Source of the DNA: Cymbomonas tetramitiformis
Taxonomy: Eukaryota; Chlorophyta; Pyramimonadophyceae; Pyramimonadales; Pyramimonadaceae
Direction of reading: 5' to 3'
Length of the DNA stretch: 64,000 nucleotides
Assembly (NCBI GenBank): GCA_001247695.2
Contig: LGRX02003709.1
Coordinates: 1 to 64,000 of the forward strand
Numbering within the stretch: position 1 is the stretch's first letter; the number at the start of each line of letters is the position of its first letter. This document shows, piece by piece, positions 33,607 through 53,976 of the stretch. Made by a program: the position numbers and the translations under genes. The notes under the pieces were generated by a model. It did not search any database. It had not been told where the DNA came from and was given only the letters and a program-made list of their open reading frames with translations.

Positions 33607-33617
33607 TTGTGTTGAGT

Positions 33618-34968: not shown

Positions 34969-37705
34969 TCATCTACCTATTGTAAGAGCAGGGCTAGCTG
35001 ACGTTGTCTTCGTATCCTCCAGTGCCTTGGCGCTGTGCCTTCCCCCTGCTCGATGGCACCCCCCGTTCCTGTTTGGTGTTCGGGTGGCTTGTAGTGTTGT
35101 GATCGCCAGTTCAAGCAGGGGCGTGGGTTTCGCTGTAAGTACCTTATGCTGGGGGTCCGGGCTCTTGTCGGTATTTATGGGCTGCTGTCGCTGCTCATGG
35201 ATCTCTGCTGCAGCAGGCCCCCCCTTGCTCAGTGTATGTACTTTTTCCCGATTGTGTGTTGGGAGTGCAGGCTTGGGTGTGATCGGTGTTACCTTTGCAG
35301 ACAGGCGGGTGGTTCTCCTCGTGATTGACTGTCCAGAGGCTGGGACCCCCATGGGTATGTCCGCTGGCGCCCCTTGTCCCCTTGCCCTTTTGGCAGGGGG
35401 CTTGGCCGGCTTGGACTCCTTCCTGGGTATCTTCGTGATGACTGTCTTCTTGACACCCAGGCCCTTGCTTCTCTCTGCCTGGCCCTCCTTGGGCTGGGGG
35501 CGTCCCTTGTAGGGGATTCCCCTGTAGGGCTGGTCCCCTGCCTCACGGTTTGCCACGAACTGGTCATATTTGGCCTTTCGGACTTCTGGCGGATCCGTGG
35601 CCACGTATTGGATCCTTTCACGCAGCGAGGGCTGAGTGCTGCCCTCCTCCTTGAAGGATGTGTCGGCACTCTTCGCTGTCCACCTCCTCAGACCCCCCTC
35701 CGAGCTGGCTTCTTGCCTGTCCTCTTCTGGGGTCTTGGTCAGGCGGTTTGTGAGGCCCACAAGTGTGTCGACCATCTCCCTTCCCGTGTCCTTGTAGGTG
35801 GAGTGGAAGTCTCTGATTCCCGAGGTGATGTCTTGATGTCTCTCAGCCGCTGTAGTCTCGATGGCCTCGGTGCGTGTAGCCGCCGCCGCCGCCTTCTGGT
35901 TGAGCAGCTCCAGCTCGTGTCCGATGTTGGACAGCAGGTGCTTGGTCTCGGGGGTCGTCGATGATGTCGGGGGGGCTGGAGTGGCTGCCTGCTGTACCTT
36001 CCTTAGGCACTCTTCGGTCGTTTTCTGCATATTGTGGATGGCAGCTTCACTCGTTTCCCTCAGTGTCTTCTCGTCCGTCGAGCTCTCCTGATGCCGGCGT
36101 CGGGGGGGCGCTGCCTGTTTGTTCCTGGACTTCGAGCCCATAAGGCTCCAGCGCCCTACCTCCACCTTCACCGGGATAAAGACCTGCTCGCCGGTGGCTT
36201 CGTTGTCGTTGAGGTGAACGTCCACTACGATGGAGATGCCAGCCGACACCAGCAAGTCGTACGCGGATTCCGTGAGGATCGCGTAGAAGTTGATGGTGTC
36301 GTTGCTGTTTCTTTTACACTGTAGCAGCGACTCCACCGTGTTGTCGGAGGGTGCCCACCTTGGTGTTCCGAGATGTTTTTCGAACACCAGGTAGGAGTCC
36401 TCGCCGTACGACGGCTGCTTCTGTCGGAGCGCCAGCTCAGAGAGTTTTTTGGTGATTGCGCTGACTATCCGTGTACGGTGTCCCACGAAGAGCTGCTGGC
36501 TGTAGTCTATCACGGCTACCTCACGTTGACTCAGCGCCTGCTTGTCTGCTGCAGATGGCAGGAGTCCCTTCCTCGTCGGGAAGCCAAAGTCAAGGTTCTT
36601 GTCCTTGATGAGGAGCTGCGCCAGGTCCTGGTGGTGCGTGACGAGGAACAATACTTCTCTGATTTTGTTGTCAGCTGGTGTCTCGTCACGCGCCCCCTTC
36701 CGTATGTGGGAGATGGCTGCACTGCCTTCCCACCCCAGTCGGGTGACCAGGTTCCCCAGGATGGCGGCGGCTTGCGCCACCGTCACCCCCCTCAGTCGGG
36801 GAGATGACACCTGAACCGTTCTTGAGCGCAGGGTCCCCGTTGGCTGTCTGTCCGGGGACCATACATATACCCTTGGGATGACTCGCTGTGGTTCGATATC
36901 GACCCATGGGTCGTCCACCACGGTCATAGGGACCAAGAAGTTGGTGTTGAACAGCACGAACAGGGCGATTGGCCTCTTCTTGAAGGCAAGGTCGATTTGT
37001 ACGACCTTGCCTTCTCGAACAGTCCAGAGTTGCGTGTGTTCGATGTTGAACACCTTGGCGTCCTCCTCCAGCTCCAACGCGCGTCGGATGACGTCGCCCA
37101 GATACCTCAGGTAGAGCAGGGTGTACCGCTGGGTTTCCCTGAGGTCAGTGATTTTTATCTGGGGGAGCCTTGGTTGGAGAGGAAGGCCGTGCTTGTTGGT
37201 TTCCTCGGGTGTCAGGTCGCAGCCGGTGATCGGCCGAACGTGTCGGAGGATTTGGTGTTCCCCCTTCCCCCCGAGTTCTTCCGTGTCGATGGCTGCCTCT
37301 GGAAGTCCGAGTTTGCAAAACTCTTCCGGCCTGCCTTCTGCGTGTGGGAGGTCTCTTGTATCCTCCCACCAGGAGGTTACGATTTCTTCGATCTCTTCCT
37401 CCCGGTTGGTGCCCAGAGCTACCTTTGTGGGTAGCTTGGACACCTCGTCGATTGCCTTGGCAACCGACGGGATTTTGTCCCCCTTGGGGGACGCAGCGTG
37501 CTTATTGTAAGCATATGGCTGCTGTAGCGCGTTGGCTACGATTCTGGTCGGGACTCGCCCCTTCTCCGTCCCCGTAGGGCCCTCAGCCCGTGGGCCGGTG
37601 GGGCTCGTGGCACCCGATTTTGTTTTTGTTTTGTATTGGGTTTTGTCTGGTTTGAATGTCTTGACTTCTGCCGTTCCCCACCTGGACTGCTTTCGCTGTA
37701 CAGGC
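34969..37705 (-). pseudogene. LINE-like ORF1, C-terminal 912 residues
   Basis: A long minus-strand frame ends in TGA at 34969. At its N-terminal side it is cut by the chromovirus LTR at 37705, and the same frame resumes at 52979 beyond that element (PYEEP before, VQRKQSR after, sharing the CAGGC duplication). It is a hydrophilic protein: an N-terminal Lys/Pro/Thr linker, a central folded region of about 450 residues (for example LLYLRYLGDVIRRALELEED and FVLFNTNFLVPMTVVDDPWV), a coiled coil (about residues 590-690 of this part) and a basic C-terminal third with KRARGQ and RRTTR. No zinc knuckle or RRM was seen. It is probably the nucleic-acid-binding ORF1 of the element whose ORF2 lies at 30703-33606, but homology is unknown to me. 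Confidence 0.65.
37701..37705. repeat. Target-site duplication, left copy (CAGGC)
   Basis: CAGGC lies directly before the 5' LTR and is repeated directly after the 3' LTR at 52974-52978. This 5-bp duplication marks the chromovirus insertion into the LINE-like ORF1. Confidence 0.95.
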
Positions 37706-39029
37706 TGTGCCAGGGAACAATAGCCCGGCCAAGCCATTCGATTGGCATATTGTATTTATGCATACTGGGGCAGTGAGATGGCAATGGGCTCGGAAGGGGA
37801 CTCCCGAGCCATTGACTTCGTACTATGGGGAGCGAAAGCCTGGACTTGATTATAGCTGGCAGCATATTATCGTACACCCTTCTGGTGCGCTACGCCGCTG
37901 GGAGCGTAATAGGGGCGGCGGCTGGTTTCTAGAAGACGCCACTCAGTTGAAGGCGCCGGTAGCGCCATTCTCATTACCGATCAGCCGCGTTGGGATCGCG
38001 TACTGGAATCCGACGATTGTGATTGACGATGACGAATATCATGGAATTCCCTACAAGGGGCGTAAGCCTACACACTCAGCGCCTACGAACAGTGAAGATT
38101 CGGGTACAGGCGCTGTGTCCTGGAGTAAGGAGAAGTTACCAGATTCTGATGACAATGATGACGCAGGTGTCACTAACAGTAAGGAGAAGCTACCAGATTC
38201 GGATGACAAAGATGACGCGGGTGTCATATATGACATGGACACTGCCAGTCCGAAATGGGAGCCAACTTCGCCTGAATATGATGACACCGAGGATGACGTC
38301 AGCGAGTTCGATGACTTGGTAGCTGACGATGCTGAAGAACAAGCTGAAGCTCGAAGGTTGAAGAGACTGGGACTGCAATTGATCATGGATGAGAAGGGTG
38401 AACTTCACTGGGTACCAAAGGGCACCTCCCCGACCTCACCTGTTCAGCCCGATGATCAGCCTATTACCGAGCAGAAGTCTGAGGCCATATCTGAGGATGC
38501 CCCAGCCTCTGTGGTGGAGACTGTTCATGCACCACCGAAGAAACCTTATGGGTCAGATACTGGATTGACTTCAATGGGTGAGAATAAGGCTGGGGTGTCT
38601 GAAGAGACGAAGAGGCAACCTAGGAAATATCCGAGATGTTGGACACATGAGTATATAACTCAATTGAAGTACTCCATAAGAAGTGACAGTGATGAAGAAG
38701 AAGGGCTTGACGTGGCTCCTCGTAGGAAGAAAGCAAAGATCAGCAAGGGACAATGAAATCAACTGTCTTGATTAGGATTGTCCAAATGCAGATTCTCTGA
38801 TTAGGATTTGTATAGGTGGCAGATGATGATATGCCAGCCGACATGGGACAGATCGATTAGAGAATATGAACTGCGCGCCTTGAAAGTATAAGACTTGAAT
38901 ATTGCCCATTTGGAGGCTGTTCTAACTTGAAGTAACTATTTGGAGGAGCTGTTGCTCAACCTGTTAATTTACTGGTCAATCTTTCCTGCCATAAAGATAT
39001 TGCAATTGCTTGAATTGTAGCCTTGTTCA
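37706..39029 (+). repeat. 5' LTR of the chromovirus
   Basis: A 1,324-bp direct copy of 51650-52973. It has TG...CA ends. Most of it is occupied by an ORF (37758-38756). The 270 bp after that ORF contain two GATTAGGATTTG motifs and probably the promoter and poly(A) signals, though none is unmistakable. Confidence 0.95.
37758..38756 (+). CDS. LTR-encoded acidic protein, unknown (5' copy)
   Basis: A 332-codon ORF (from the first ATG) lies wholly within the LTR and is identical in the 3' LTR. The N-terminal 100 residues look folded and Trp-rich (VRWQWARKG, LDYSWQHIIVHPSGALRRWE). A highly acidic, Ser/Asp-rich middle follows, with a duplicated KEKLPDSDDNDDAGV-type unit, then a Pro/Ser linker and a basic tail (APRRKKAKISKGQ) like a nuclear localisation signal. 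I do not recognise the family. Codon-level intactness in both LTRs suggests it is used. An accessory or regulatory nuclear protein is an inference from composition only. Proteins encoded in LTRs are rare in retrotransposons. Confidence 0.75.
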   Translation: MHTGAVRWQWARKGTPEPLTSYYGERKPGLDYSWQHIIVHPSGALRRWERNRGGGWFLEDATQLKAPVAPFSLPISRVGIAYWNPTIVIDDDEYHGIPYKGRKPTHSAPTNSEDSGTGAVSWSKEKLPDSDDNDDAGVTNSKEKLPDSDDKDDAGVIYDMDTASPKWEPTSPEYDDTEDDVSEFDDLVADDAEEQAEARRLKRLGLQLIMDEKGELHWVPKGTSPTSPVQPDDQPITEQKSEAISEDAPASVVETVHAPPKKPYGSDTGLTSMGENKAGVSEETKRQPRKYPRCWTHEYITQLKYSIRSDSDEEEGLDVAPRRKKAKISKGQ

Positions 39030-39884
39030 ACTGTTTATCTAGAACATTGCAATTTTGTACACTGCAAAATTGCCGACTACGGACCTGTGCCCCAAGATTG
39101 AAGCAGATTTACCTCTGACTGACCCTTGAGCTCCGGCTCGGATACAGTCACGTGCTCAAGAAGTCTTCACTTGGAAGTGGTATTGCTCTGCGCCCTTTTT
39201 GCCCCCTGACTTTCACCCTGCATGCAAACAGGCGATTTTTCAAAACTGTTATGCTGCAAAGTGGTCAGAAAGTGGGAAAAGAAGCCGCCAGCAACTCAAA
39301 TCTACCGGGATTAACAGCCAGATTGACCCGAACGGAGAGTGAAAAGTGGACCAGTGGTCAGATTGAGAAAAAGAGGACCTCGGAGACAGTTTTAACGTAG
39401 GCACAAAAATTCCAGACGTTTCTTGATAGTTTTTTGTCGTTTGGAACCTGGCCCCGAGACCTGGGTCCTCATAGATCGCTACATTTTAAATTGGGATGGC
39501 CAACCGGCACGGCAGAGCAAAATTAGACAAATTTGAGCCCATCAGACTACATAGAAGGAAACGGGAGCCCAGAAGGATAGTTTTCTATTTTTTTTATATT
39601 CTTTGAAGGAAAAAAATAGTCTCCAATACTGGGACCTGGCCAATTAGTCTGGATTGCTCCGGGATGGCCGCCAAGAAATTAGCCAAACTGCCGATCGACA
39701 CTCCATTTTTGAAATTTGGCCACCAAAAACTGCATTTCACTCTGGAAAGCATATTTCGTTGTTCACCACGACTTCCACTGCTACGAGGAAATATTTTTCT
39801 GAGTGTTCTGGGGGGATTTGCCAAATTGGACAGATTTGACTTCCCCAACGGTCAGATTTACACTTTGTCACTCTTAATTTCAAC
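39030..39884 (+). other. Chromovirus leader between LTR and gag
   Basis: 855 bp. The bases right after the LTR (ACTGTTTATCTAGAACATTG) do not begin with TGG and match no tRNA 3' end or the initiator half-tRNA that I know, so the primer is unclear. Short ORFs on both strands look spurious. Confidence 0.6.
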
Positions 39885-42800
39885 ATGATGCAAAACGCTA
39901 ACACGGGACGCTCACCTCCAACGTCGCCTACGTCGACTCCTAGGCGTACAAGGGGACGACAGGCCAGCCAGCGCAGCACGAGAGGTGCTGCAGCCACTGG
40001 AACCACTGGCAAGGGGGCGAAGGGCACCTACAAGGCGCCCTCTCCGGGTCAGCCGCCACAGGCTGCGACAGCAGCAGGTGCGCCAAGCTTCCAGATACCC
40101 AAGAAGAAGTCGACCCTGTCAGCTGATGCTCCTGAGTTTAACAGCGTGACTCCTCTGGCTCTGGACTCTGGAACCGCTTGTGTGACACCTTCCCTGGAGG
40201 AGGCTGTAACGGTACCTAAACCGCGCCCTAATCCGCCCCTGCGTCATGCAAGAGCGGCGTCACCAAGGGTGCTGACTGTTGACACCCCTGGTGCAGGGCG
40301 AAACATGAGGGCGACTCCCCAGCGGTATGTCAACTTGACCTCTCCTTCCCCTGGCATCCTGCGATTGCCAGGAAGCCGCGACCTGAGCCCTCCAGCTCCG
40401 CGCCAGCGAAGCCCGCCTCGGACTCGAGACCGGACCCCGCCACCGCCGCGCTGCAGGAGCCCACCACGGACGCGCGACATGAGTCCTCCAGCTCCAAGAC
40501 CGCGAAGTCCTTTGAACCCCTACAGGACTCCACACACTTGGTCTGGAGCTACGGTGATGACCTCCCCGCACGGCCAGCTGCCCACGCCATTCAGCGAGAA
40601 CGCGCTTCAGGCTGAGTCCGCGGGAGCAGCCTCTGTGGGACAACCTCTACCGGCTGACCGACCACCTCGCGACCCGATCGCCGTGCGCGAAATGACCGAG
40701 GTCAAAATTGCAGCATGTGAGCAGGACATGCAGAATGAGGCGAATGAGCAGAAACCAGGACTTCGTCAATTTCCTTCCCGCTCTGATGTGGCCAACTGGC
40801 GAAAGCGCCAGCAGCCGGGTGAGAATCTCGCCTGGACTCCGCGCCCTAACCAAGGGGGTGTGGGGGCAGCGGGGAGGTCAGAGGACACGCACCAAAGCAT
40901 TGCTGGCGAACTCATGGCACACTCAATGCATCCAACTCCCTCCTCAACAAGCAACGGGGAGGTGGGGGCAGCGGGGAGGACAGGTGGCTCCGGCTTGACA
41001 GGTGGCCCACGCCACATAAGCATAGCATGTTCTGGGCATTCGCTGACCTCACCGATTACCGATACCGTTACGGAACCTAAGGTGATCGGTGACTCTATGG
41101 CAAGGTTATCGGTGACTTTCGAGTCCGAGATAGACAGCGAGGCAACTTCACTGACGCCCTCACTGACTCAGGCGACTACGGAGGCGGCTACGGTTACGGA
41201 TATGCTCGAGTCCCTGTTGAACTGCGAGTCCAGACCTTTGACTACCTCGCTGACCTCAACAACTACGGATATGCCCGAGTCCCTGTTGAACCGCGAGTCC
41301 AGACCTTTGACTACCTCGCTGACCTCAACAACTACGGATATGCCCGAGTCCCTGTTGAACCGCGAGTCCAGACCTTTGACTACCTCGCTGACCTCAACAA
41401 CTACGGAGCAGCCAGTCAGCTCAGTCAGTTACGCAGACCTCGCACTCAGGCGTAGCATTGGACTCGCAGCCTACCAGCCGCATCTTAACCGCAACCTACC
41501 AGTCATCGAACCCCCTTCTCAAGCAGATGTCCTCAGCAGAATTCCAGTCAGAAACTTACCTCTGAACTCAGACTCAGTGAACCAGCTTTCTCGCCGGGAG
41601 AGGCGCCATCAGAGATGGGAACAGAACCAGCAGCGCCTGGCAGAACAGCGCAGAGCACTCTTCTCTGACCCCGCCTCAGCCAGAACGCCCTCAGATGCCT
41701 CTGTCCCCGCACTGAACTCTCAGCATCAATCCCTAATGCAGAATCAGATGATGTTAGAGGTATCAGAGTACATGCAAAATCTGCATCAGCAAGTGCTCCA
41801 ACACTATCCACATCTGACTTCAGTTCTACCAGCAGTGGGCGCTCCACCTATGACGCCCTACCAGCACACCTTAGGATGGGCGAGCGGTTTACCAGGTGCA
41901 CCGGCGCCAGCAGCTGGATCAGGTCCCTGGCTGGTACCAGCACCGGCTCAACCGGTTCCCGCACCGGCTCAACCGGCTCCAGCACCGGCTCAACCGGCTC
42001 CAGCACCGGCTCATCCGGCGCCGGCACCATTTCAGCCAGATCCACCGGCTACCGGCTCATCGCCCTCTGACTCCGCTGAGCCTGATCAACCGTCACCAGG
42101 AAACTCGCCCCCGCCTTCAGACAATGGTGAACCACGACACAGGCGTCTAGACGTGTTGTTATGGACTTTAGAAGGAGCCTCCTTCTGGTTGAGAAATCAC
42201 CTGTCCTCTTCCTCCGCAGTTACTGTCAGCCACGGCGCTGAGGCACAATACTCTTACCGACTGCCAACCATGCCTGGAAGCGCCAGTCACTTCATAACCG
42301 ATACCAATCGGATTTGGATGACTATGCGGCACATCGGAGTGGACATCCAAGACCTGGCGCAGCATGGGTCAGTGCATACTCCTGTGCGCCTGACTGAGAT
42401 TGAGGACAGTGACGCTTTCACTCTGGAAGTGGAGAAAACGCAAGTGGATGAAGCGCGGCGTTGCGCGGAAAGCCGTACTGGAACTCAGCAGAGACGCCTG
42501 CCCTTGTACTCATGGGTAACCATCGCGGAAAATGCCTTAGAGTCCGAGCTGACAGAATTTGACCCCCTGGGACTCCAAATTTGGGCAGCATTTTCATCTT
42601 CCGAGGCGTACTTGTTTAGAGGAATGGCGGCTGGCAACCAACCAACTCCCGCCACAGTACCGGCTAGACTGGGCGTCAACCGGTTTCCCTCTGGTGTTCC
42701 CAGCGCAGCAGAGTACAGATCGCCTGGAAATTCCTTGCCAGCGGCCCCGGGACTCCTGCCAGTAGACCAGCGCCTTTCTCAATTCCCAGGGCACCACGAT

Positions 42801-43973
42801 CTTATGGGAGCGGCTTCCCCAAGTGATGTCTACCGAGAATCCAAGACAGTGGCTGATGTGCTCAAGCTGATCAGAGACATTCCTATGTACCCCTCCTCCG
42901 CTGACCTAATCACCACTGACGCAGATATTGCCGCGCTTCCACCTTTTTCTGAAGCGCTGGTCAATTTTCTGTCAATGGGCGTAGTCACCTTCGCCCTGGG
43001 TCGCATGAGTGCTTATCGCCTAGACCTAACCATGATCACCATGCCGGAGATCTTGAAGGAAGTGGCTCAACGCAAACTACAGCCGCGATCCCTAACTTTT
43101 CTCAAGCAAGGTGGAATGTTGAACTCGGAGGCCTGGAACCGGCGTTACGCCACTTTGGCGCCTTTCCTGGCCGACGTAGCCAGGAGCGTACTGGATGACA
43201 TCGCGCTGGTAGGACTAGCGGGGACAGTGATGCGCATGGCGCAGCGACGAGAAGAGACTGCGCGTTTGTTCGCTACTCGTCTGGTATCCTGGCACGAGGT
43301 AGTCCAGTTATTGGCAGACGCCATGCCCAACTGCCACGCCATCAGCCAACAGCAGCTATTATATCAGTTCTGGTCTGGACTGCGACTGAAGCAAGCTGTG
43401 ATGGATCGCCTTATTGAGGATCGGTTGGATCTGCAAAGTCCAGCGGATTGGGAAAGCAATCATCCCGGATCCACCGCGCTGCAGCATATCATCACTGTGG
43501 CCACCAAATTGGAGCGCAGTGAAGCTCTGACCGCAGCACGAACCTCTCCCGTCTCTGCACCTGCGAACCGAAGTCCTGCCTGGAGGAATGGTCGCTCGTC
43601 CTCCAGACTTAACGCCGTGCAGGACGCTGGGGAGGAAGATGCTACTGACCCCGACCCCGCCGACCTCAGGGTGCAGCACGCCGTGCCGCCCAGCCCGGCG
43701 GGATTGACCAGGCCGCCACGCCGATGCTACGTCTGCAACTCTGACTCCCATTTATGGGCTAACTGTCCCGACGAGGCCAAGAAACGAGCCTGGATTGCTG
43801 ACGCCCCAGCTCGTTTGGCACGCCGCCGCGCTGCAAATGAATCTCATATCGCAGCGCTGGAAACAGAATGGGAGGATTTGGAAGAGGAAGCGGAAGCGCT
43901 GGAGTATTTTCAGAACGAGGAATCGGCCGCAGCGTCCTCCTCGGGTCAGCAATCTGCGGAAGAGGAGGACTGA
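39885..43973 (+). CDS. Chromovirus Gag
   Basis: A 1,362-residue ORF, unusually long for a gypsy Gag. The first 330 residues are Pro/Arg/Ser-rich and disordered, with RSPPRTRDRTPP-type repeats. Residues about 440-510 hold three 23-residue repeats (LTTSLTSTTTDMPESLLN), and about 680-725 a PAPAQ repeat. A helical capsid-like region spans about 960-1215. A CCHC knuckle follows at C1281-C1284-H1289-C1294 (CYVCNSDSHLWANC), as expected of nucleocapsid. The C-terminal 65 residues are Glu/Ala-rich. The ORF overlaps the pol ORF by about 105 bases in the -1 frame, so pol is probably made by -1 frameshifting, though I could not point to a slippery site. Confidence 0.9.
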   Translation: MMQNANTGRSPPTSPTSTPRRTRGRQASQRSTRGAAATGTTGKGAKGTYKAPSPGQPPQAATAAGAPSFQIPKKKSTLSADAPEFNSVTPLALDSGTACVTPSLEEAVTVPKPRPNPPLRHARAASPRVLTVDTPGAGRNMRATPQRYVNLTSPSPGILRLPGSRDLSPPAPRQRSPPRTRDRTPPPPRCRSPPRTRDMSPPAPRPRSPLNPYRTPHTWSGATVMTSPHGQLPTPFSENALQAESAGAASVGQPLPADRPPRDPIAVREMTEVKIAACEQDMQNEANEQKPGLRQFPSRSDVANWRKRQQPGENLAWTPRPNQGGVGAAGRSEDTHQSIAGELMAHSMHPTPSSTSNGEVGAAGRTGGSGLTGGPRHISIACSGHSLTSPITDTVTEPKVIGDSMARLSVTFESEIDSEATSLTPSLTQATTEAATVTDMLESLLNCESRPLTTSLTSTTTDMPESLLNRESRPLTTSLTSTTTDMPESLLNRESRPLTTSLTSTTTEQPVSSVSYADLALRRSIGLAAYQPHLNRNLPVIEPPSQADVLSRIPVRNLPLNSDSVNQLSRRERRHQRWEQNQQRLAEQRRALFSDPASARTPSDASVPALNSQHQSLMQNQMMLEVSEYMQNLHQQVLQHYPHLTSVLPAVGAPPMTPYQHTLGWASGLPGAPAPAAGSGPWLVPAPAQPVPAPAQPAPAPAQPAPAPAHPAPAPFQPDPPATGSSPSDSAEPDQPSPGNSPPPSDNGEPRHRRLDVLLWTLEGASFWLRNHLSSSSAVTVSHGAEAQYSYRLPTMPGSASHFITDTNRIWMTMRHIGVDIQDLAQHGSVHTPVRLTEIEDSDAFTLEVEKTQVDEARRCAESRTGTQQRRLPLYSWVTIAENALESELTEFDPLGLQIWAAFSSSEAYLFRGMAAGNQPTPATVPARLGVNRFPSGVPSAAEYRSPGNSLPAAPGLLPVDQRLSQFPGHHDLMGAASPSDVYRESKTVADVLKLIRDIPMYPSSADLITTDADIAALPPFSEALVNFLSMGVVTFALGRMSAYRLDLTMITMPEILKEVAQRKLQPRSLTFLKQGGMLNSEAWNRRYATLAPFLADVARSVLDDIALVGLAGTVMRMAQRREETARLFATRLVSWHEVVQLLADAMPNCHAISQQQLLYQFWSGLRLKQAVMDRLIEDRLDLQSPADWESNHPGSTALQHIITVATKLERSEALTAARTSPVSAPANRSPAWRNGRSSSRLNAVQDAGEEDATDPDPADLRVQHAVPPSPAGLTRPPRRCYVCNSDSHLWANCPDEAKKRAWIADAPARLARRRAANESHIAALETEWEDLEEEAEALEYFQNEESAAASSSGQQSAEEED
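41212..41410 (+). repeat. Three tandem 69-bp units within gag
   Basis: Units beginning GACCTTTGACTACCTCGCTG start at 41233, 41302 and 41371, spaced by 69 bp, and keep the frame. Confidence 0.92.
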
Positions 43974-46900
43974 GTGTCTTCCTGCCGGCGGGACGCCGGC
44001 GACAGGGCGGTATGGGTAACCGCCCCTGGGCAAGGAGTACAGCCTTCGCCCACAACCGGGGGAATATCCAGAAAGAGCCTCCGCCACCCCCCAACCCTCT
44101 GGCCGCTCGAGGGTACGGATTCACCTGGTCTGCCGATCAGAGGCGACAACGCCATCTCGACAGAACCAGAACCCTACGGGATGAACCCTCGTTGACCAGT
44201 ACCGCTGTTTACACAGCGAACCTTTCCACTGAGCAGGGCCGGCGAGAACATCACTTGGTGTCCCGGCGCCATCAGCGGTCGCCACGAAGGTCACCCACTT
44301 CGTCGCCTGAGCGCTCCAAGCCTCCCGTTATGTTCAGTGTAGATCGCTCCCTTGGAACTGGTGATCGCCGTCAGGCTCCACAACGCGAGCGTGGCGAAAC
44401 GCCCCGCGTTGACCCCACAGACCCTAACCCTAACCCTAACCCTAACCCTAACCCTAACCCTGAGACATCAGTACTGGCAGCACTGGATGAGGATGATGGT
44501 CAGGAAGAGGAGACCCAGTGGACCTTCAACCCACTCAACACCCCCTGGCGGAAAACTCCTCGACCGCGGGTACCGAGAAAAGCTCCGGTGGAGCGTATGC
44601 GAGCCTTGAGGCAGCGGATTCAGGATGTAACGCTACCCGCGGTTTCACACCCTCTGGACGACAGTGGGGAGGAAGGGGGTGGAACTTCAAAAACTGGCCC
44701 AGCTTCAGAACCCCCACCTTTTAAACTTCGACCTGAGGTGTTTCCTTCGACGTCTCGACCAGCAGCGTGTCCAGCCTTGGCAGAGAGGGCGTCCTTAAGC
44801 GCAGAGCGCACTACGAGTGCAGCGCGCAAGCGCACTGGAAAACCTCGCAGCAGAACTCCGAAGACGGTACGAGACCGACTGCAGCATGAGGCAGAGGTTA
44901 CGAGGCTGGGAGATGAACCACCAGGACTTCGAGCAGAGTCACTGGCGGATCGCACGCGTGCTTGGAGAGAGATGACGCACCCGGAGCACATGGCCGCGGC
45001 AGCGCTGGTAAAGGAGAATGAGAAATGGAGAAATGCATGGGTACCAGAAGGGTGGCGCAGATATCGCCGCCGCTGGTACAGATGGCATGGGAAGGTCACC
45101 CCTGACCTAACGATAACCGAAGGAGCAGTTCAGCTATCTCTGGAGACCGAGTGCGGTACTATCCCAGGTTCTGGTGGAGATGTAGGAATTCCAGACGCAT
45201 GGTGCAGTCTATACAGGGTGCACCAATGGAACCAGCGAGAAAGGGAAGCGGCGGAGGAGGCTGCTCACCTGGCTCTACCCTCAACAGCAAGTGGTGATTC
45301 ACTCTCCCTGGACTCAGCGGAACCATCAGATGCGAATCCAGCGACAACTCTGGATTTGACCTTATCTCCATCCAGTTCTCAGCCCGCAACTTCTGGGGAC
45401 ATTTCTGACCTCGAGGACTCCCAGCGGTCGCTCAACTTCACGCAGCAGTTGATGGAGCGACAGCTGGCCGCCGCCAGATCGGAGAACAATCCAAGTGTGC
45501 TGACAACGGTGACAGAAGGAGTGGAGCCGACTCCCCTGAAAACCATCCAGGAGGAAACCCACCTGGAACTGCTACTGACCATTCAGAAACAGCAACGCCA
45601 TCGTCTGCGGCCGATCCTGGAAGGTAATGAAGCAGTGGCAGCACCAGCGAACGTCACCAACGCCCAGGCGGCACCGCGGGAAGAAGAACCCCCCTCGTTC
45701 ACTCAAAAGTCCGAACCAGAAGATAGCGCTGGGGAGGAAGAGGAGGAGAAGATGTCCATCCAACCTCTTCGCTCTTACCCTCTGGAAAGCCGCACGCAGA
45801 GCCGCGCCAGACGACGCGCTCAGGGACAAGAGCGACGCGCTAAGGAGCGGCAGCTACAAGCAGATCGCGACCTGGAAGGTGGATGGTACTTTGGTCCGGA
45901 TCCTCGTTCGCAGCCTGCACCACCGCGCACAAGACCTATCCGGTCTAAGCAGCGCGTACCTTTGCATCACCCAGTGCGAGCAGCCATCTGTGCACATCTG
46001 CGACGCGATGGTCAAGTAATGTGGAACCAGGACAGTCAGCTGACTGCGATTCGGGACAAAGAGGGAACGCTGCTATTGGTGTTCTGGGCCTTGCTGAAGG
46101 GACAGCGAGTGCGCGTGCTGGTGGATTCGGGTGCCTCGGATGAATTCATCTCCAGTGAGTGCGTCAAGAGATTGAACCTCACAGTTCGCGCTAATGGGAT
46201 GCCGCTGAACGTTACCCTCGCGGATGGGTCAGTGCAGACCTCTGCGCAAGTCGCTTACGGCAAGCTGACCGCCGAGACTTCAGAGGGGACTTACTCCGAG
46301 GTCATCAAGATGCGAGTACTTCCTTTGGGCATCAAGGTGGACATTGTACTCGGAGGAAGGTGGTTGAGACACCTCTCGCCGGTCACGCTGGACTATGATG
46401 GGTGGGGATCAGTCAAGTTTCGCCAGCATGGCAAATCCGTGCGGATACGGGGATGTTCGCCAGGGCGTAGCTCTACACGCAAAGGCGAGAGAACCGCGAT
46501 GGCTCTGGAACCGATGGTAATGTTATCAGCGGCTCAAGCGACCAAGGAGATCAAAGCCTATCGGCGCAGATATGCGGGAATGGACAGTGCCGCGACACCC
46601 CACGACATCTTAGTGGCCTATGCGACACCTCTGGTAGGGACTTCGATGTTATCAGCGGTGGCCACCAGCGAGAATTTGGAGGACCCTTCAATCTCCCCCG
46701 AGTGGAGAAAGAAGTTTCAGAAGCTGATCGAGTCCTTTTCACCTCGAGTAATTCGCGAAGCGCTGCCCAACTTTGACGCCCTGCGAAAAGATGAAGTGGC
46801 CCACGTGAGACTGCAAGAGGGATGGAATGGCATCGCGCCCGCTAAGAGGCCCTACAAGATGTCCATGGTGGAGCTGACTCAATTGCGAGAACGCCTGGAT

Positions 46901-47758
46901 GAACTCCTGAGCAAGGGCTACATCAGACCTTCCTCAAGTCCGTTCGCTGCACCAGTGCTGATGGTTCCCAAGCCTGGGAAACCTGAAGTACTCAGAATGG
47001 TCTGCGACTTCCGAGCCATCAACAGCCTGACCGTCAAGGACAAATATCCACTTCCCGACATTCAGCAGTTGTTCGACTCCATGCATGGGGCCAAGTACTT
47101 CTCCTCCTTCGATGCGGTCGATGGGTTCTGGCAGATGGCTATGGCGTCTGAGGATGTGGAAAAGACTGCGTTCACTTCTCCCTATGGCTCGTATGAGTGG
47201 TTGGTGATGCCCATGGGGTTGACCAACAGTCCTTCCTGCTATCAGAGACGCATGCAGCGCGCTCTGGGACATCTTCCTTTTGTAAGAATATTCCTGGACG
47301 ATTGTATCCTCTTCAGCAACACCTTGGAGGAGCATCTTTCCCATCTCCAGCAATTTCTCGAAGTCTGTGAGAACCAGGGTATCTACCTCAAAGAGTCTAA
47401 GTGTCAACTATTGCAGACCCAGATACGCTTTCTGGGGCACGTGATCTCACGGGAAGGAAGTCAACCTCAACATGACAAGCTGGCCGCCATCAGGGACTGG
47501 CCCGCTCTGGAAAACGCCACGCATGTGCGCCAATTTTTGGGGTTGGCTGGGTACTACCGGCGGTACATGCTGGGCTTCTCTGAAGTAGCACAACCCTTGA
47601 CTCAGCTCACCAAAGGGGATGTCGCTTGGCTATGGGGACCCATGCAGCGTTGGGCCTTCGAGGAGATTAAGAAGGCGCTATGTTCTTCACCCCACTCTGG
47701 CGCTACCCGATATGAAAGCGGCGGCCGAAGGACGGCATCCTTTCGTGGTACAAACTGA
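43868..47758 (+). CDS. Chromovirus Pol, first part: protease and reverse transcriptase
   Basis: This frame overlaps the end of gag by about 105 bases and is -1 relative to it. A long low-complexity N-terminal region of about 650 residues includes a Pro-Asn run encoded by telomere-like CCCTAA repeats. Then come an aspartic protease (LVDSGASDEFI, Asp753) and a gypsy reverse transcriptase: KGYIRPSSSPFAAPVLMVPK, FSSFDAVDGFWQM (Asp1082), the active site FLDD (Asp1144-Asp1145), FLGHVIS, and FLGLAGYYRRYM. FLDD is a less common but known variant of YxDD. The frame runs out at 47758. Real homology moves to the next frame at a CCCC run at 47690-47693, so RNase H and everything after are in frame with the following entry. 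The first ATG may not be used if the protein is made by frameshifting. Confidence 0.92.
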   Translation: MGGFGRGSGSAGVFSERGIGRSVLLGSAICGRGGLSVFLPAGRRRQGGMGNRPWARSTAFAHNRGNIQKEPPPPPNPLAARGYGFTWSADQRRQRHLDRTRTLRDEPSLTSTAVYTANLSTEQGRREHHLVSRRHQRSPRRSPTSSPERSKPPVMFSVDRSLGTGDRRQAPQRERGETPRVDPTDPNPNPNPNPNPNPETSVLAALDEDDGQEEETQWTFNPLNTPWRKTPRPRVPRKAPVERMRALRQRIQDVTLPAVSHPLDDSGEEGGGTSKTGPASEPPPFKLRPEVFPSTSRPAACPALAERASLSAERTTSAARKRTGKPRSRTPKTVRDRLQHEAEVTRLGDEPPGLRAESLADRTRAWREMTHPEHMAAAALVKENEKWRNAWVPEGWRRYRRRWYRWHGKVTPDLTITEGAVQLSLETECGTIPGSGGDVGIPDAWCSLYRVHQWNQREREAAEEAAHLALPSTASGDSLSLDSAEPSDANPATTLDLTLSPSSSQPATSGDISDLEDSQRSLNFTQQLMERQLAAARSENNPSVLTTVTEGVEPTPLKTIQEETHLELLLTIQKQQRHRLRPILEGNEAVAAPANVTNAQAAPREEEPPSFTQKSEPEDSAGEEEEEKMSIQPLRSYPLESRTQSRARRRAQGQERRAKERQLQADRDLEGGWYFGPDPRSQPAPPRTRPIRSKQRVPLHHPVRAAICAHLRRDGQVMWNQDSQLTAIRDKEGTLLLVFWALLKGQRVRVLVDSGASDEFISSECVKRLNLTVRANGMPLNVTLADGSVQTSAQVAYGKLTAETSEGTYSEVIKMRVLPLGIKVDIVLGGRWLRHLSPVTLDYDGWGSVKFRQHGKSVRIRGCSPGRSSTRKGERTAMALEPMVMLSAAQATKEIKAYRRRYAGMDSAATPHDILVAYATPLVGTSMLSAVATSENLEDPSISPEWRKKFQKLIESFSPRVIREALPNFDALRKDEVAHVRLQEGWNGIAPAKRPYKMSMVELTQLRERLDELLSKGYIRPSSSPFAAPVLMVPKPGKPEVLRMVCDFRAINSLTVKDKYPLPDIQQLFDSMHGAKYFSSFDAVDGFWQMAMASEDVEKTAFTSPYGSYEWLVMPMGLTNSPSCYQRRMQRALGHLPFVRIFLDDCILFSNTLEEHLSHLQQFLEVCENQGIYLKESKCQLLQTQIRFLGHVISREGSQPQHDKLAAIRDWPALENATHVRQFLGLAGYYRRYMLGFSEVAQPLTQLTKGDVAWLWGPMQRWAFEEIKKALCSSPHSGATRYESGGRRTASFRGTN
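44421..44461 (+). repeat. Telomere-like CCCTAA array inside pol
   Basis: Forty-one bases of uninterrupted (CCCTAA)n, close to seven units, in the sense strand of the pol ORF, translated as repeated Asn-Pro. It is identical to the TTAGGG-type telomere repeat. Confidence 0.95.
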
Positions 47759-50700
47759 CGCCAGTGGAGTGGCACTAGGGGGAGTACTGATGCAAGACGT
47801 AGGAAATGGATTGCAACCTATCGCCTTTGAGAGCAGACAGTTTAATGGAGCCGAGCAGAACTACCATGCTGGCGAAAGAGAACTCTGCGCTCTCCATCAC
47901 TGCACTACGCAAACTTGGCGACACTACCTCATCTGGACTGAGTTCCAATTGCAGGGTGACCACAAGCCCCTAGTCTGGTTAATGGCACCCGGACAACCTC
48001 TCAGCCGACGCCAAGCCCGATGGTACATGGATCTAGTGGAGGTAGGGGTACCCGAGATGGAATACATCCCTGGGGCGCTACTCTGGGTTCCAGACGCTCT
48101 GTCCAGGCGACCCGACTACAAGGAAATTTCCGCGAGAGAAGGACTGGTAGAAGCTGGCTTTGTGCATCCGGTTACTGGGAAACCGCAGCGACCTCCCTCG
48201 GCCGCAGACACTGCCAGCAAGTTTCGACCTGCAGCTGGTAAAGAGTCCCGCCAAGGACGCGCGCCCCTGGGAGTGGTAGATCCCAACAAGTTGAAGGAGC
48301 GCAAGTCCAACAGCGCCAAGACCAAAGATCCTGAACCAGTCCTCGCGTACAGTGGGACTCTCACCTGGATGGACTCCCCTCAACTCTGGATGGACGCCTT
48401 ACATACCCTGCAGCTGGCCGAAACTGGGTACGAGAAAGCAACCCTGGCAGTTCAGACGCGCTCTGGCAAACTGACAGCATCCTCGCCCCCTTCTCCCAGG
48501 AAGACCCCTGTTGATTTCTCAGCAACGCCGAAGTGCAGCGAGGCTTCAACCAGACTCCTGGAGCCCAGCGATCGACAGGACTGGAAGTTCCGGGCGGACA
48601 TGTTCGACTTCTTGAGTCAAGAATATGGACCTTTCGAGGTGGACGCCTGTTGCGACTTGGGAGGAAAGAATCGTCAGGTCAACCGCTACTGGACGGACTG
48701 CTTGAAGGAAAACTGGCGAGGGTTGAACGTCTGGTGCAATCCTCCCTTCTCCTCCAACCATTTGACCATCGAGGCCGTACTGAGGAAATATGTGGAAGAA
48801 TGGCGTCTGGACCCTGAGAATACTTCAGCTCTCTTCGTCCTTCCTGACTTTCAATCTCGCATGCCACAGTGGCGGCAGTTGTTCAGATCTGCGGGAATGA
48901 GAGTGGAGTACATTATTCCTACCCATGACGCTCAAGGAGAACCTGTGCAGATGTTCGCCGCCCCGGATGGAGCCCTTCTGGATCTGCCTTGGCCCCTGCT
49001 AGTGGTGTACGCCCCGCCAGCTCGACAGCGTGTCAAGCGGGAAAGGAAAACGAGTTCCCCCCCTCCTATCGTGCGTACTGGAGAAGCGGCCAGCGTTCGA
49101 GACCTGCATCAGCAGATATCAGGAGGCCAGTTCCTCAAAGCGCTGCAAGCGGAATATGGGCGACCTGGTCCCCTTCAGACTTTAAGGAAGGAAATCCAAG
49201 AAGCTCCGCATCAACGCACTCGTGACTTCTGCGTAGTGGGAGATGTGTTGTGGAGGGTGAGCGCTGGGCGCTATCAGTTGGTACTGGGAGAAGATTCACC
49301 CCTCCGTGAGGTAGTGCTGCAAGAGGCGCATGCATCTGTTTCAGCTGGACACGCGGGCAGGGACAAAACTCTGGAACGAGTACTGCGACGCTTCTGGTGG
49401 AAAGGGGCAGCAGAAGATGTGGGACGCTGGGTTTCATCTTGCACTATCTGTCAAGCGGTGCGACCGAGAAATTCCTACCCGGATGGATTGCTGAACCCAC
49501 ACACTATTCCTACGCGACTATGGCAAGTGGTCAGTGTGGACTTTGTTACTGGACTGCCAGTCACGGCGCGGAATCACGATGCCTTTGCTACTTTCACATG
49601 TAAGCTCAGCAAAATGGTTCACATCATCCCGTTGAACTTCCAGGACAGCTCCTCTGAGGTTATCGCTCGAATCTACTTCGACCACATCTGGAAACTACAT
49701 GGCACCCCTATGAAGATTGTCTCTGACCGCGACCCTCGTTTTCAGGATGCTATGTGGAAGGAATTGATGAGACTTATGGGAACTAAAGTGGCCTCCACCA
49801 CGCCTTACAACCCTCGTTCGGACGGACAAGCTGAACATACCAACCGCGTGGTAGAAGACATGCTAAGGTCCTTCGTAGGCAGCAATCCAGAGGACTGGGA
49901 TTTGTGGTGTGCCAACGTAGAGTTCGCCATAAACGATACGCGGAGCGATGTAACCGGCTTTACCCCGTTTGAGTTGGTCTTGGGGCACTCGCCTATGTCG
50001 CAACTGGACTTGTTCCTGCAAGCGGCTGCTGGACAACACTCCAAGCGTAAGGGTGGAGAAGGTACGGCACACGAGATGGCTAGTAAATTCGCGGCTCAAC
50101 TAGAGGACGCCCGCACTAAGCTAGAACTGGCACAGCAACGCCAGCGACATCAGTTTGACCAGCGTCACACCGCCAAATCCTTTCAGTTGGGAGACTTGGT
50201 CTGGGTAGATGCCAAGCATCTCACGGAAAATATCATGAACCGCGAATCCTTCAGGAAGCTGGGACCTCGCTGGCACGGGCCCTTACCCATCACCGAGAGG
50301 TTCTTCAGTGACCAGCAGCGAGAGCTACCCGAAATTGACAGAGGTGCTCCGGTGGCTTACCGGCTCAAGTTACCCCCTAAATGGCGTATCCACGATGTTT
50401 TTGCGCAGCATCGCCTCAAGGAATACCGCACCGCGGATGAAGCCTTTGCGCTGCGTCGACAAATACCTACTCCTGCCAAGGTTCTCGTGGATGGACAATC
50501 CCAGACCCATGTGTCTAAGATTCTGGCTCGAAGAGTGAAACCTATGAAAGGAGGCAAGGAAGTAGAAGAATTTCTGGTTCGCTGGACTGGGTACTCTAAT
50601 GCTCATGACTCCTGGAAGACCCGTGAGTCGTTGAACTACGGGGGTGAACTCGAACAGCTCACGGAGTTCGAACAACTGAGACTATCACGAGAAGGACAAG

Positions 50701-51569
50701 CCCGGGAAAAAGCCTTACAGGAGGTCAGAATGCAGCGGAAGCAAAGGCGGGAACGCGCCGGAGCTTTAACTTTCCTGGACACCTCTGATGAAGGAAAACT
50801 CACTTCTCTGGACAACTGCCTACCTTGGGAACAATACTGTCGCTCCGCTGACGCCTTTGTGACGCATCTAGCTCTTCTGGGCTCTGGGGTCTCGACACGC
50901 GAGTTGCGACTACTAGTACTTTTCAGTGGTACAGGAAGTGTGGAGAGAAGTTTCATGTCATGTTATCCGAAGAGCACTGTGGTCACCGTCGATCATGATC
51001 CTCGCTGGCAACCTACCTACGCTGAGAAGGTTCAGGACTGGGACTTCAAGCGTTACGCACCTGGTTACTTTGACGTCATCTGGGCTAGTCCACCGTGCAC
51101 CGAATACAGTCAGGCTAAGACCACTGGGGTGCGACAACTGCGACAGGCTGATGCTTGTGTACGCCGAACGCTCCAAATTTTTGACTTTCTCAAACCCCAG
51201 CATTGGTTTATGGAAAATCCGATGGGCAGGTTTCCCTTTGCGCTGCGATTTCGACCCGTAGTTCGCCGGTTACCTACCCCGTTGTATTGCTCTTACTGTA
51301 TGTATGGTACTGGCTATCGCAAGCCTACTTGCATCTGGACGCAGTCGCCTCCTCCAGTGGATCTACGGTACTGCACGATGGATACTCCTTGTCTTCACCA
51401 ACAGACTCTGGGATCACATCCGGAAACTGCTCAACTGGGACCTCATCCAGGGCAACAAGGAGCGGGAGTTTCCACTGCTGTATACCCTCTGCCCGCTGGA
51501 TTGCTTCGTCAACTCTTCGAGCACCTGTTCGATCAGAAAAGCATATCACGCATCCATACGCATGGCTGA
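47690..51569 (+). CDS. Chromovirus Pol, second part: RNase H, adenine MTase, integrase, chromodomain, cytosine MTase
   Basis: Open from 47619, with homology from 47690. Domains in order: RNase H (VVQTDASGVALGGVL); a phage Dam-like N6-adenine methyltransferase at about 48585-49005, with FEVDACCD, a Trp-rich spacer and the catalytic NPPF in VWCNPPFSSNHL; integrase zinc region (HAGRDKTLERV, CTICQ) and DDE core (SVDFVTG, VSDRDPRF, GQAEHTNRVVED); an SH3-like tail; a chromodomain at about 50510-50680 (HVSKILARRVKP, EEFLVRWTGYSNAHDSWKTR); and a C5-cytosine methyltransferase at about 50905-51510. The last has motif I (LVLFSGTGSVERSF), catalytic PC in WASPPCTEYSQAKTTG (Cys codon 51096), WFMENPMG, YCMYGTGYRKPTCIW and a closing AVYPLPAGLL. 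All catalytic motifs appear intact. The protein could act on element DNA in the particle or nucleus. Confidence 0.92.
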
Positions 51570-51631
51570 TCTGTGTCTGGATCTTAGCTGCTGTACAAAT
51601 GACTCTGAGTTATCATCTCTTTGTACTAACA

Positions 51632-51649
51632 AGCTAAGAGGGGAGGAGT
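51632..51649 (+). promoter_or_regulatory. Polypurine tract
   Basis: AGCTAAGAGGGGAGGAGT lies immediately before the 3' LTR and is the expected plus-strand primer site for reverse transcription. Confidence 0.88.
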
Positions 51650-52973
51650 TGTGCCAGGGAACAATAGCCCGGCCAAGCCATTCGATTGGCATATTGTATT
51701 TATGCATACTGGGGCAGTGAGATGGCAATGGGCTCGGAAGGGGACTCCCGAGCCATTGACTTCGTACTATGGGGAGCGAAAGCCTGGACTTGATTATAGC
51801 TGGCAGCATATTATCGTACACCCTTCTGGTGCGCTACGCCGCTGGGAGCGTAATAGGGGCGGCGGCTGGTTTCTAGAAGACGCCACTCAGTTGAAGGCGC
51901 CGGTAGCGCCATTCTCATTACCGATCAGCCGCGTTGGGATCGCGTACTGGAATCCGACGATTGTGATTGACGATGACGAATATCATGGAATTCCCTACAA
52001 GGGGCGTAAGCCTACACACTCAGCGCCTACGAACAGTGAAGATTCGGGTACAGGCGCTGTGTCCTGGAGTAAGGAGAAGTTACCAGATTCTGATGACAAT
52101 GATGACGCAGGTGTCACTAACAGTAAGGAGAAGCTACCAGATTCGGATGACAAAGATGACGCGGGTGTCATATATGACATGGACACTGCCAGTCCGAAAT
52201 GGGAGCCAACTTCGCCTGAATATGATGACACCGAGGATGACGTCAGCGAGTTCGATGACTTGGTAGCTGACGATGCTGAAGAACAAGCTGAAGCTCGAAG
52301 GTTGAAGAGACTGGGACTGCAATTGATCATGGATGAGAAGGGTGAACTTCACTGGGTACCAAAGGGCACCTCCCCGACCTCACCTGTTCAGCCCGATGAT
52401 CAGCCTATTACCGAGCAGAAGTCTGAGGCCATATCTGAGGATGCCCCAGCCTCTGTGGTGGAGACTGTTCATGCACCACCGAAGAAACCTTATGGGTCAG
52501 ATACTGGATTGACTTCAATGGGTGAGAATAAGGCTGGGGTGTCTGAAGAGACGAAGAGGCAACCTAGGAAATATCCGAGATGTTGGACACATGAGTATAT
52601 AACTCAATTGAAGTACTCCATAAGAAGTGACAGTGATGAAGAAGAAGGGCTTGACGTGGCTCCTCGTAGGAAGAAAGCAAAGATCAGCAAGGGACAATGA
52701 AATCAACTGTCTTGATTAGGATTGTCCAAATGCAGATTCTCTGATTAGGATTTGTATAGGTGGCAGATGATGATATGCCAGCCGACATGGGACAGATCGA
52801 TTAGAGAATATGAACTGCGCGACTTGAAAGTATAAGACTTGAATATTGCCCATTTGGAGGCTGTTCTAACTTGAAGTAACTATTTGGAGGAGCTGTTGCT
52901 CAACCTGTTAATTTACTGGTCAATCTTTCCTGCCATAAAGATATTGCAATTGCTTGAATTGTAGCCTTGTTCA
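51650..52973 (+). repeat. 3' LTR of the chromovirus
   Basis: A direct 1,324-bp copy of 37706-39029. It is followed by the second CAGGC target-site copy at 52974-52978. Confidence 0.95.
51702..52700 (+). CDS. LTR-encoded acidic protein, unknown (3' copy)
   Basis: The second copy of the 332-codon ORF described at 37758-38756, identical in sequence. It begins 133 bp after the pol stop. In a full-length transcript the complete ORF could be read from this 3' copy if the transcript extends past it, or from a separate LTR-initiated transcript at either end. Confidence 0.72.
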   Translation: MHTGAVRWQWARKGTPEPLTSYYGERKPGLDYSWQHIIVHPSGALRRWERNRGGGWFLEDATQLKAPVAPFSLPISRVGIAYWNPTIVIDDDEYHGIPYKGRKPTHSAPTNSEDSGTGAVSWSKEKLPDSDDNDDAGVTNSKEKLPDSDDKDDAGVIYDMDTASPKWEPTSPEYDDTEDDVSEFDDLVADDAEEQAEARRLKRLGLQLIMDEKGELHWVPKGTSPTSPVQPDDQPITEQKSEAISEDAPASVVETVHAPPKKPYGSDTGLTSMGENKAGVSEETKRQPRKYPRCWTHEYITQLKYSIRSDSDEEEGLDVAPRRKKAKISKGQ

Positions 52974-52978
52974 CAGGC
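52974..52978. repeat. Target-site duplication, right copy (CAGGC)
   Basis: Matches 37701-37705 on the far side of the chromovirus. Confidence 0.95.
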
Positions 52979-53587: not shown

Positions 53588-53599
53588 GTTCCGCGAGAA

Positions 53600-53975
53600 G
53601 TGTGACGTTTGCAACATTCAAACCAACGATGCATTGTATCTTAGGATAACATCTCTCCCTACACACAATATAGAATCAACCAACCTTTCTACCTTTACAA
53701 ATTCTAACGAAATGATCAGTTCTGATATCTGGGCGAAAATATTATTGCCAAGTGACACAACGACAGACTTTATAAGATACATAGATCCAAACGACAACTT
53801 TGTTATTGAAGTGTCTGGGTCTCAATTTACTTCATTTAGAATCACACTTACAGATTCTAAAGCGAGACTGATCACATTGGCATCTCCGACTCAAGCATTA
53901 GACGGCAGTATTAACTATTCATTAAGCATTAAGGTTGAAGAATTGGCACCTGCTGGTCTCTCAGATATTTTATAA
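53600..53975 (+). pseudogene. C-terminal part of a virus-like protein
   Basis: An ORF ending in TAA at 53975, 22 bp before the capsid-like gene. Its last 115 residues (from about TNDALYLRITSLP) look coherent, rich in Thr/Ser/Ile and beta-like (FVIEVSGSQFTSFRITLTDS). The upstream Gly/Arg-rich residues probably derive from the flanking LINE relic, so the N-terminus has been lost. Base composition shifts to AT-rich here, as in the genes to the right. Likely a minor structural or hypothetical protein of a Polinton-like virus; the role is unknown. Confidence 0.5.
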
Positions 53976-53976
53976 T

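Follow-up and report, generated by a model that had tools for sequence, protein, structure and literature searches.

Why would a retrotransposon carry two different DNA methyltransferases? The question is raised by a 64,000-nucleotide stretch of the prasinophyte alga Cymbomonas tetramitiformis (assembly GCA_001247695.2, contig LGRX02003709.1, positions 1 to 64,000; hereafter, the window), in which a Ty3/gypsy long terminal repeat (LTR) retrotransposon occupies positions 37706-52973. An initial analysis, made from the letters alone and called here the sequence-only reading, proposed that this chromodomain-bearing element encodes both an N6-adenine-type and a C5-cytosine-type methyltransferase domain, and profile matches, motifs, and domain order bear this out. 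Our favored answer, to which we give slightly less than an even chance, is that the element may itself methylate its new copies, with the adenine enzyme (Dam) acting on complementary DNA (cDNA) and the cytosine enzyme (C5) acting on the cDNA or the insertion.

A recently inserted chromodomain retrotransposon

The element is bounded by two LTRs of 1324 bp (37706-39029 and 51650-52973, plus strand) that differ by one mismatch and run from TGTGCC to TGTTCA, giving the ends TG...CA. A 5-bp target-site duplication, CAGGC, flanks them (37701-37705 and 52974-52978), and a polypurine tract, AGAGGGGAGGAGT, abuts the 3′ LTR (51637-51649, plus strand). When the flanks were joined by script to rebuild the empty site, a 1112-amino-acid stop-to-stop frame on the minus strand ran across it; the element splits this open frame into parts at 34969-37737 and 52900-53514. 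As this frame is uninterrupted across the empty site, the element has the look of a clean and recent insertion, made into another open frame. By eye, and without comparison to a tRNA set, we found no TGG adjoining the 5′ LTR that would mark a tRNA primer-binding site. For self-priming, no word starting at 39026-39050 had a complement of at least 10 bases inside 37706-40000.

Of the proteins labeled with an organism, the nearest are C. tetramitiformis gene models. One model, P0096, is 99.3% identical over 677 amino acids of the first pol open reading frame (ORF) and 99.1% over 1154 amino acids of the second, and another, P0064, is 99.4% identical over 320 amino acids of gag and 97% across the pol parts present. 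As none of the gag, pol, and LTR-ORF stretches compared in P0096, P0011, and P0064 is fully identical, these models represent other young copies or alleles. Judged from its sequence, the element belongs to this alga and is a Ty3/gypsy retrotransposon with a chromodomain, inserted recently.

All three large ORFs of the element lie on the plus strand. A gag-like ORF of 1362 amino acids (39885-43973) has a zinc-knuckle-like CCHC motif at its C terminus; its match to PF21890 (E 0.012) is under the cut-off of that family. By Pfam profile matches, pol ORF 1 (43868-47758) encodes an aspartic protease (about 46094-46354; PF13650, E 1e-8) and a reverse transcriptase (RT; about 46964-47446; PF00078, E 3.6e-32). 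Pol ORF 2 (47619-51569) encodes RNase H (47736-48038; PF17917, E 7.4e-28); the Dam-type domain (48570-49019); the H2C2 zinc-binding domain and rve catalytic core of integrase (49296-49814; PF17921, E 6e-19, and PF00665, E 6.1e-6, the latter under its cut-off); an integrase C-terminal SH3-like domain of the Tf2-1 type (50340-50429; PF24626, E 7.1e-9); a chromodomain behind PF24626 (50508-50642; PF00385, E 6e-7); and the compact C5 domain (50898-51485). The pol order of protease, RT, RNase H, and DDE integrase, with H2C2 well over its cut-off and rve under, is that of Ty3/gypsy elements, and the chromodomain at the integrase C terminus is that of chromoviruses. No match to a tyrosine recombinase, which would indicate a DIRS element, was found in the three ORFs at E 0.1.

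Evidence for the two methyltransferase domains

The sequence-only reading expected pol ORF 2 to match the Dam and DNA_methylase families, and both matches were recovered, the first clearly and the second at the borderline. Searched with the whole ORF, PF05869 (Dam) scored 37.9 bits (E 1.9e-9) against a cut-off of 28.1, over profile positions 7-78 of 169 only, and the PHROG family phrog_111 (DNA methyltransferase, Dam) matched with E 3.7e-11. This match above a curated cut-off, together with the (N/D)PP(Y/F) motif in the form of NPPF (48738-48749, the predicted catalytic tetrapeptide), identifies the domain as a phage-type Dam. A profile built from 48 Dam domains of retrotransposons (36 rows once filtered) aligned with 62 Dam ORFs from IMG/VR contigs, across 114 columns (E 4e-23). 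P0064 is 100% identical to this domain over 90% of the query. In four IMG/VR contigs (L128, L134, L136, and L167), matches to the C5 and Dam profiles occur in separate ORFs.

PF00145 (DNA_methylase) scored 21.2 bits against the whole of pol ORF 2 (E 2.2e-4), just below its cut-off of 22, and 24.8 bits against the excised C5 piece. That match stops at profile position 110 of 324, and the match to phrog_757 (DNA methyltransferase, C5; E 7.1e-15) reaches 181-182 of 247. Residues that we take to be C5 motifs I, IV, and VI are present: PPC (51090-51098), with the catalytic cysteine of motif IV encoded at 51096, and EN of motif VI, within ENP (51213-51221). YRKPT follows from 51315. The coordinates given in the sequence-only reading, for NPPF and for the PC cysteine, are correct. 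In the predicted proteins of this copy, both motif sets (NPPF of Dam; PPC and ENP of C5) are intact.

When 599 stop-to-stop segments from the window were scanned, our family C5 profile matched pol ORF 2 alone (E 2.4e-86), and the family Dam profile matched only pol ORF 2 (E 3.2e-60) and one ORF of a copia element described below. Because the window's own domains are included in those profiles, the E-values are not independent proof.

Do these domains modify DNA? When the C5 profile was compared with solved structures, the best matches were DNMT2 / tRNA C38 methyltransferases (E 9.2e-8 and 9.4e-8); further matches at E 0.1 were DNMT1 and one chain named "5-cytosine DNA methyltransferase," and none was named DNMT3. 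The sole structure matched by the Dam profile was the NPPF region of PCIF1, a cap m6Am enzyme, and this match was not significant (E 0.29). Such matches would suit enzymes that act on RNA, whether element RNA, primer tRNA, or cap, instead of DNA. We find this distinctly unlikely. The DNMT2 match decides little, because the C5 core is common to DNA and RNA enzymes; the match to PCIF1 does not rise above chance, for which reason we rejected kinship with that protein; and phage DNA methyltransferase families match both domains more strongly.

We also examined the origin of the C5 domain. In a tree of 114 rows, 34 retrotransposon C5 domains formed one clade (bootstrap 94, SH-like approximate likelihood ratio test 82). 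The contigs L001 and L082 are its neighbors (joint clade 100/99), and 78 IMG/VR sequences lie separate from these. The retrotransposon rows were hand-chosen for spread, with P0033, P0061, P0062, and P0139 excluded, as was L128, and the viral rows were the best 80 of 578 confirmed matches; the tree holds no cellular C5 or Dnmt3 rows. In a quick tree that included those four retrotransposon rows, support for the retrotransposon clade was only 40. The placement indicates that the C5 domain is of the compact viral type, as seen in a tree without cellular C5 enzymes. L082, although filed under Octadecabacter, has a DUF5906/VapE-like gene alongside its compact C5 gene (1-609 of 1-8692); in our reading, it resembles a polinton-like element or a small DNA virus of eukaryotes. 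We rejected the grouping of L001 and L082 as one kind of virus, as the C5 gene alone matches among their ORFs (40% identity).

The two-domain layout in relatives

How widespread is the layout? Database searches returned 63 proteins with the C5 part and 17 with the Dam part; by iterated profiles, both domains occur in 50 of these 73 different proteins, in some of them incompletely. Since these samples were preselected for the domains, we assembled a third on the basis of RT/RNase H only, using P0004 as the query and taking the best 120 of the 735 proteins that passed a threshold of E 1e-60. Among these best 120, 46 proteins extend at least 500 amino acids beyond integrase. C5 was present in 41 of the 46, Dam in 41, and both in 40, including P0096, in which C5 is present only in part. 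The long-tailed proteins with neither domain were P0099, P0101, P0105, and P0131 (Cordylochernes, Lolium, Tanacetum, Chara); P0124 combines Dam with a C5 tail that has decayed, and P0145 has a degenerate C5 without Dam. Thus, the layout is not a one-off, and unannotated dual elements are numerous in sequence databases.

An RT tree of 117 rows, with nine rows added from the C5 search and rows covering less than 90% of the RT profile excluded, gave a clade of 73 with a support of 100. It contains 48 dual proteins, 14 truncated gene models with Dam, six rows with Dam and a long tail without a C5 match, and five others (four truncated, one C5 only). A second clade of seven (support 98) contains five dual and two C5-only proteins, and a C5-only pair is placed apart (support 99). 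None of the 31 rows with neither domain, which include plant, charophyte, and arthropod names, falls inside the methyltransferase clades. The branch that unites these clades has a support of 6 and would include a six-row clade of neither-domain or truncated rows; for this reason, we do not claim a single capture from the tree.

One further relative, L081 (1-13451), is filed as Verrucomicrobiaceae TMED86 and is a misfiled retrotransposon with the same domain layout. It seems to be circularly permuted: RNase H to C5 comes first, a gag-like ORF next, and RT lies close to the end of the contig. The whole of pol ORF 2 found no relative in the viral contig and genome contig collections. Three database proteins (P0025, P0057, and P0059) have a C5 domain in the N-terminal part of Pol, and P0057 and P0059 have a Dam-like domain near the C-terminal end.

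To follow the domains through time, we compared 31 pols in which RT, integrase, Dam, and C5 were each covered by more than 85%. Mean protein distances were 0.461 for RT, 0.491 for integrase, 0.506 for C5, and 0.629 for Dam, which puts C5 close to RT and integrase in its slow pace of change and makes Dam faster. Distances correlated for every pair of domains (r 0.74 to 0.87, with C5-RT at 0.83 and Dam-RT at 0.74), and none of 2000 permutations gave values as high. Compared with P0002, the window is 81% identical in Dam and 73% in C5, with linkers at 59%, 68%, and 41%; compared with P0004, the values are 67% for Dam and 60% for C5, with 33% for the RNase H-Dam linker and 40% for the chromodomain-C5 linker. 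In 14 pairwise comparisons, C5 identity exceeded that of the chromodomain-C5 linker except with P0096, a gene model that is cut there. The margin of Dam over the RNase H-Dam linker was clear among near relatives and slight among distant ones (P0018: 35% versus 30%). At the level of predicted proteins, these comparisons demonstrate that Dam and C5 have long been co-inherited with RT under protein-level constraint.

The possibility of chance similarity, an assembly chimera, or a one-time capture of host gene fragments is negligible, and we found nothing in its favor. Dozens of database proteins, as well as L081, have the same domain order, the LTRs and target-site duplication are intact, and domain divergence tracks RT; together with the window-wide profile results, these observations contradict it.

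Possible roles of the two domains

What might an element gain from these enzymes? Dam, which is sited between RNase H and integrase, sits with the enzymes that make and carry cDNA and may act on cDNA after reverse transcription. C5 could be tethered via integrase and the chromodomain at the insertion site and there act on either the cDNA or the newly made insertion. Methylation could shield the cDNA, give it the appearance of host DNA, or set the chromatin state of new copies. Prasinophytes are said to have methylomes regulated by DNMT5, with 5-methylcytosine (5mC) placed between nucleosomes in the bodies of genes (PMC12344493); a mark brought by the element could thus pass for a host mark. 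With regard to C5-carrying elements, de Mendoza et al. discussed escape from foreign-DNA recognition and the shielding of cDNA, and they noted that the two kinds of enzyme, adenine and cytosine, might do analogous work (PMC5890265).

Several observations weigh against self-methylation by this element. In the compact part that holds C5, we could make out no separate domain for target recognition. The scars that self-methylation might leave at CpG and GATC gave nothing clear in the element: CpG observed/expected ratios in its ORFs are 0.79-0.81, and GATC occurs 15, 12, and 11 times versus 14.8, 14.4, and 15.2 expected. Pol ORFs 1 and 2 overlap (47619-47758) in different frames. As RT and RNase H are thus in different frames, and the relatives P0002 and P0004 are each one continuous protein across this junction, this copy may have a frame lesion or a programmed shift. 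In the distant relative P0052, Dam (32%) is barely better conserved than the neighboring linkers (27% and 31%). Lastly, in an enlarged set of relatives, the Dam motif [NDS]PP[YFW] was found in only 65 of 89 well-covered domains, with HPPF and FPPF treated as lost, and eight elements have decayed C5 tails from which PPC and ENP are gone.

These losses are recurrent. In the first set of relatives, C5 SPPC was kept in 52 of 53 domains, ENP in 53 of 53, and Dam NPPY/NPPF in 38 of 48. In the enlarged set, where both domains were well covered (n = 54), 40 proteins had both motifs and 14 lacked the Dam motif only. The eight decayed tails (P0116, P0117, P0119, P0120, P0123, P0124, P0128, and P0129) had no direct match to the C5 profile; in profile comparisons, they aligned with it at single-sequence E-values of 5.1e-4 to 1.8e-9, P0116 being the weakest (probability 31%). 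The best of 10 shuffles per tail reached 0.0071 to 0.095, and five other parts of each protein gave 0.014 or worse. The Dam motif is also gone in P0117, P0119, P0120, P0123, and P0128 (the last being poorly aligned there) and is retained in P0116, P0124, and P0129 despite the decayed C5. Mapped onto an RT tree of 78 rows, the state of Dam must have changed 12 times or more (72 rows scored) and that of C5 five times or more (62 scored). That tree includes seven decayed rows; P0119 and P0123 were dropped for RT coverage, and P0145 was judged decayed by eye. As active-site residues are repeatedly lost in relatives, catalysis by both enzymes is not always needed.

One explanation is that Dam and C5 are mainly nucleic-acid-binding or scaffold parts of Pol, for which catalysis is optional. 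The persistence of domains after active-site loss, with the Dam motif off in 24 of 89, the number of state changes on the tree, and the alignment of tails that lack PPC and ENP to the C5 profile are all consistent with this explanation, which we nevertheless consider somewhat unlikely. A scaffold has no need of PPC and ENP, yet where the C5 profile matches well they are near-invariant (WASPPC in 69 of 71, ENP in 71 of 71). This copy is itself intact at both sites, and the dead copies may merely be losing function. If the element does methylate its new copies, some lineages would manage without this job or have it done by other means, since their active sites decay even as the domains remain.

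A very improbable alternative is that the domains act against rival DNA, such as that of DNA viruses or other transposons. Morozov et al. (2019) proposed this role for transposon methyltransferases in general (PMC6338049), and Cymbomonas is rich in endogenous giant-virus and polinton-like elements (PMC10675990). We saw no sequence sign of non-self targets, however, and a replicating element would presumably gain first through its own cDNA.

A Dam-like stretch in a copia element and other features of the window

The window also contains a Ty1/copia element with a pol ORF at 2429-9622 (plus strand; RVT_2, E 1.4e-19) and LTRs at 1704-1956 and 10166-10418. The LTRs have one mismatch in 253 bases, and no target duplication is evident. 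Ahead of the integrase in this ORF is a Dam-like stretch (5645-5905, plus strand) with NPPF at 5729, which scores 36.5 bits against the gypsy Dam profile; the best of 200 shuffles scored 3.1 bits. As the stretch has no Pfam match and reaches only E 0.025 with phrog_111, the case for a copia Dam is weaker than that for the gypsy one. The family C5 profile found no C5 match in the copia element.

Taken together, these results allow a broader scenario, in which an old Ty3/gypsy group with a virus-derived adenine and cytosine pair stamps its new copies, the enzymes repeatedly go dead but are retained, and, to judge from the copia stretch, LTR elements of this host benefit generally from adenine methylation. 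We offer this tentatively, as it is on balance doubtful. If true, it would constitute the evolution of enzymes into pseudo-enzymes inside a retrotransposon polyprotein, traceable step by step.

Each LTR of the gypsy element contains the same ORF of 349 amino acids (37707-38756 and 51651-52700, plus strand). It is 66% identical to gene model P0022 over 303 amino acids, 99.1% identical to P0011 over 347, and 99.4% identical to P0096 over 320. Because a length of 349 codons was reached in none of 1000 Markov resamplings of the LTR, and because the ORF is kept in all three models, it likely encodes a protein, as far as these comparisons can indicate. Models P0011, P0096, and P0022 hint at a spliced product joining the N-terminal half of C5 to the LTR ORF; we rejected this product, as their junctions disagree.

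GATC is scarce in the flanks, unlike in the element (17 versus 42.7 expected in 53000-64000; 12 versus 26.0 in 30000-37700). An ORF at 16198-18762 combines leucine-rich repeats (PF13516, E 1e-10) with a bacterial-type globin (PF01152, E 3.5e-9), and an ORF at 32623-33606 has a weak match to Ulp1 protease (E 0.027, below cut-off). A direct-repeat array at 55170-56000 has copies up to 96% alike, spaced about 63 to 203 bases apart.

Comparison with known systems

The sequence-only reading knew of no gypsy element with both methyltransferases. In searches of the open-licence PMC literature, which leaves most subscription papers and all bioRxiv preprints outside, no title or opening of an abstract described one; in sequence databases, many lie unannotated. 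Morozov et al. (2019) stated loosely that Ty3/Gypsy and DIRS elements in green algae and other groups encode Dam and Dcm; their passages on these elements describe no single element with both (PMC6338049).

Among the closest described systems is KnitGypsy-Dnmt3 of Klebsormidium nitens, a Gypsy LTR element with a C5 methyltransferase inside its Pol ORF that is reported to be under purifying selection, with Ka/Ks <0.2 (de Mendoza et al., 2018; PMC5890265). Its C5 is of the Dnmt3 type and the passages on it mention no adenine methyltransferase, whereas the element described here has what looks like a compact viral-type C5, placed after a chromodomain, and, between RNase H and integrase, Dam. The same paper describes SymbioDIRS-Dnmt3, with a Dnmt3 domain in Pol, and a LINE with a DNMT in Symbiodinium.

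DIRS elements with adenine or unspecified methyltransferases have been published (PMC5890265, PMC3266345). In DIRS1-like elements, the Pol order is RT, RNase H, and methyltransferase, the function of the last being termed unknown in a 2011 overview (PMC3266345). The methyltransferase thus follows RNase H, as it does here. DIRS elements, however, have a tyrosine recombinase and no target-site duplication, and the passages on them mention no C5 (PMC3266345); our element has a DDE integrase, a target-site duplication, and C5.

In Cymbomonas itself, the 2023 genome paper describes Chlamyvir-related Ty3/Gypsy chromoviruses with a chromodomain in pol (PMC10675990). These come from the same alga and share the chromodomain pol, but no word beginning with "methyl-" was found in the main text. 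Sola1 transposons of the brown alga Ectocarpus have a ParB-methyltransferase accessory protein (PMC12477816) and are alike in placing a prokaryote-type methyltransferase on an algal transposon; they differ in being DNA transposons with a single methyltransferase in a separate gene.

The C5 domain resembles compact phage enzymes (phrog_757 and phrog_363) and the C5 genes of L082 and L001 in a core of about 200 amino acids with motifs I, IV, and VI and in a C-terminal block with YC and RK.T.IW. The phage, L082, and L001 genes are free-standing, whereas the C5 of the element is fused in Pol.

Elements with C5 or Dam singly were known before. What is added here is a Ty3/gypsy group with both, so far from Cymbomonas and metagenome contigs, with which the reason that retrotransposons capture methyltransferases could be probed. 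Combinations of intact and dead domains in otherwise long ORFs provide natural variants for separating the role of each enzyme. As Cymbomonas is culturable and has near-identical copies of the element and a published nanopore assembly, 5mC and N6-methyladenine (6mA) could be read over young copies.

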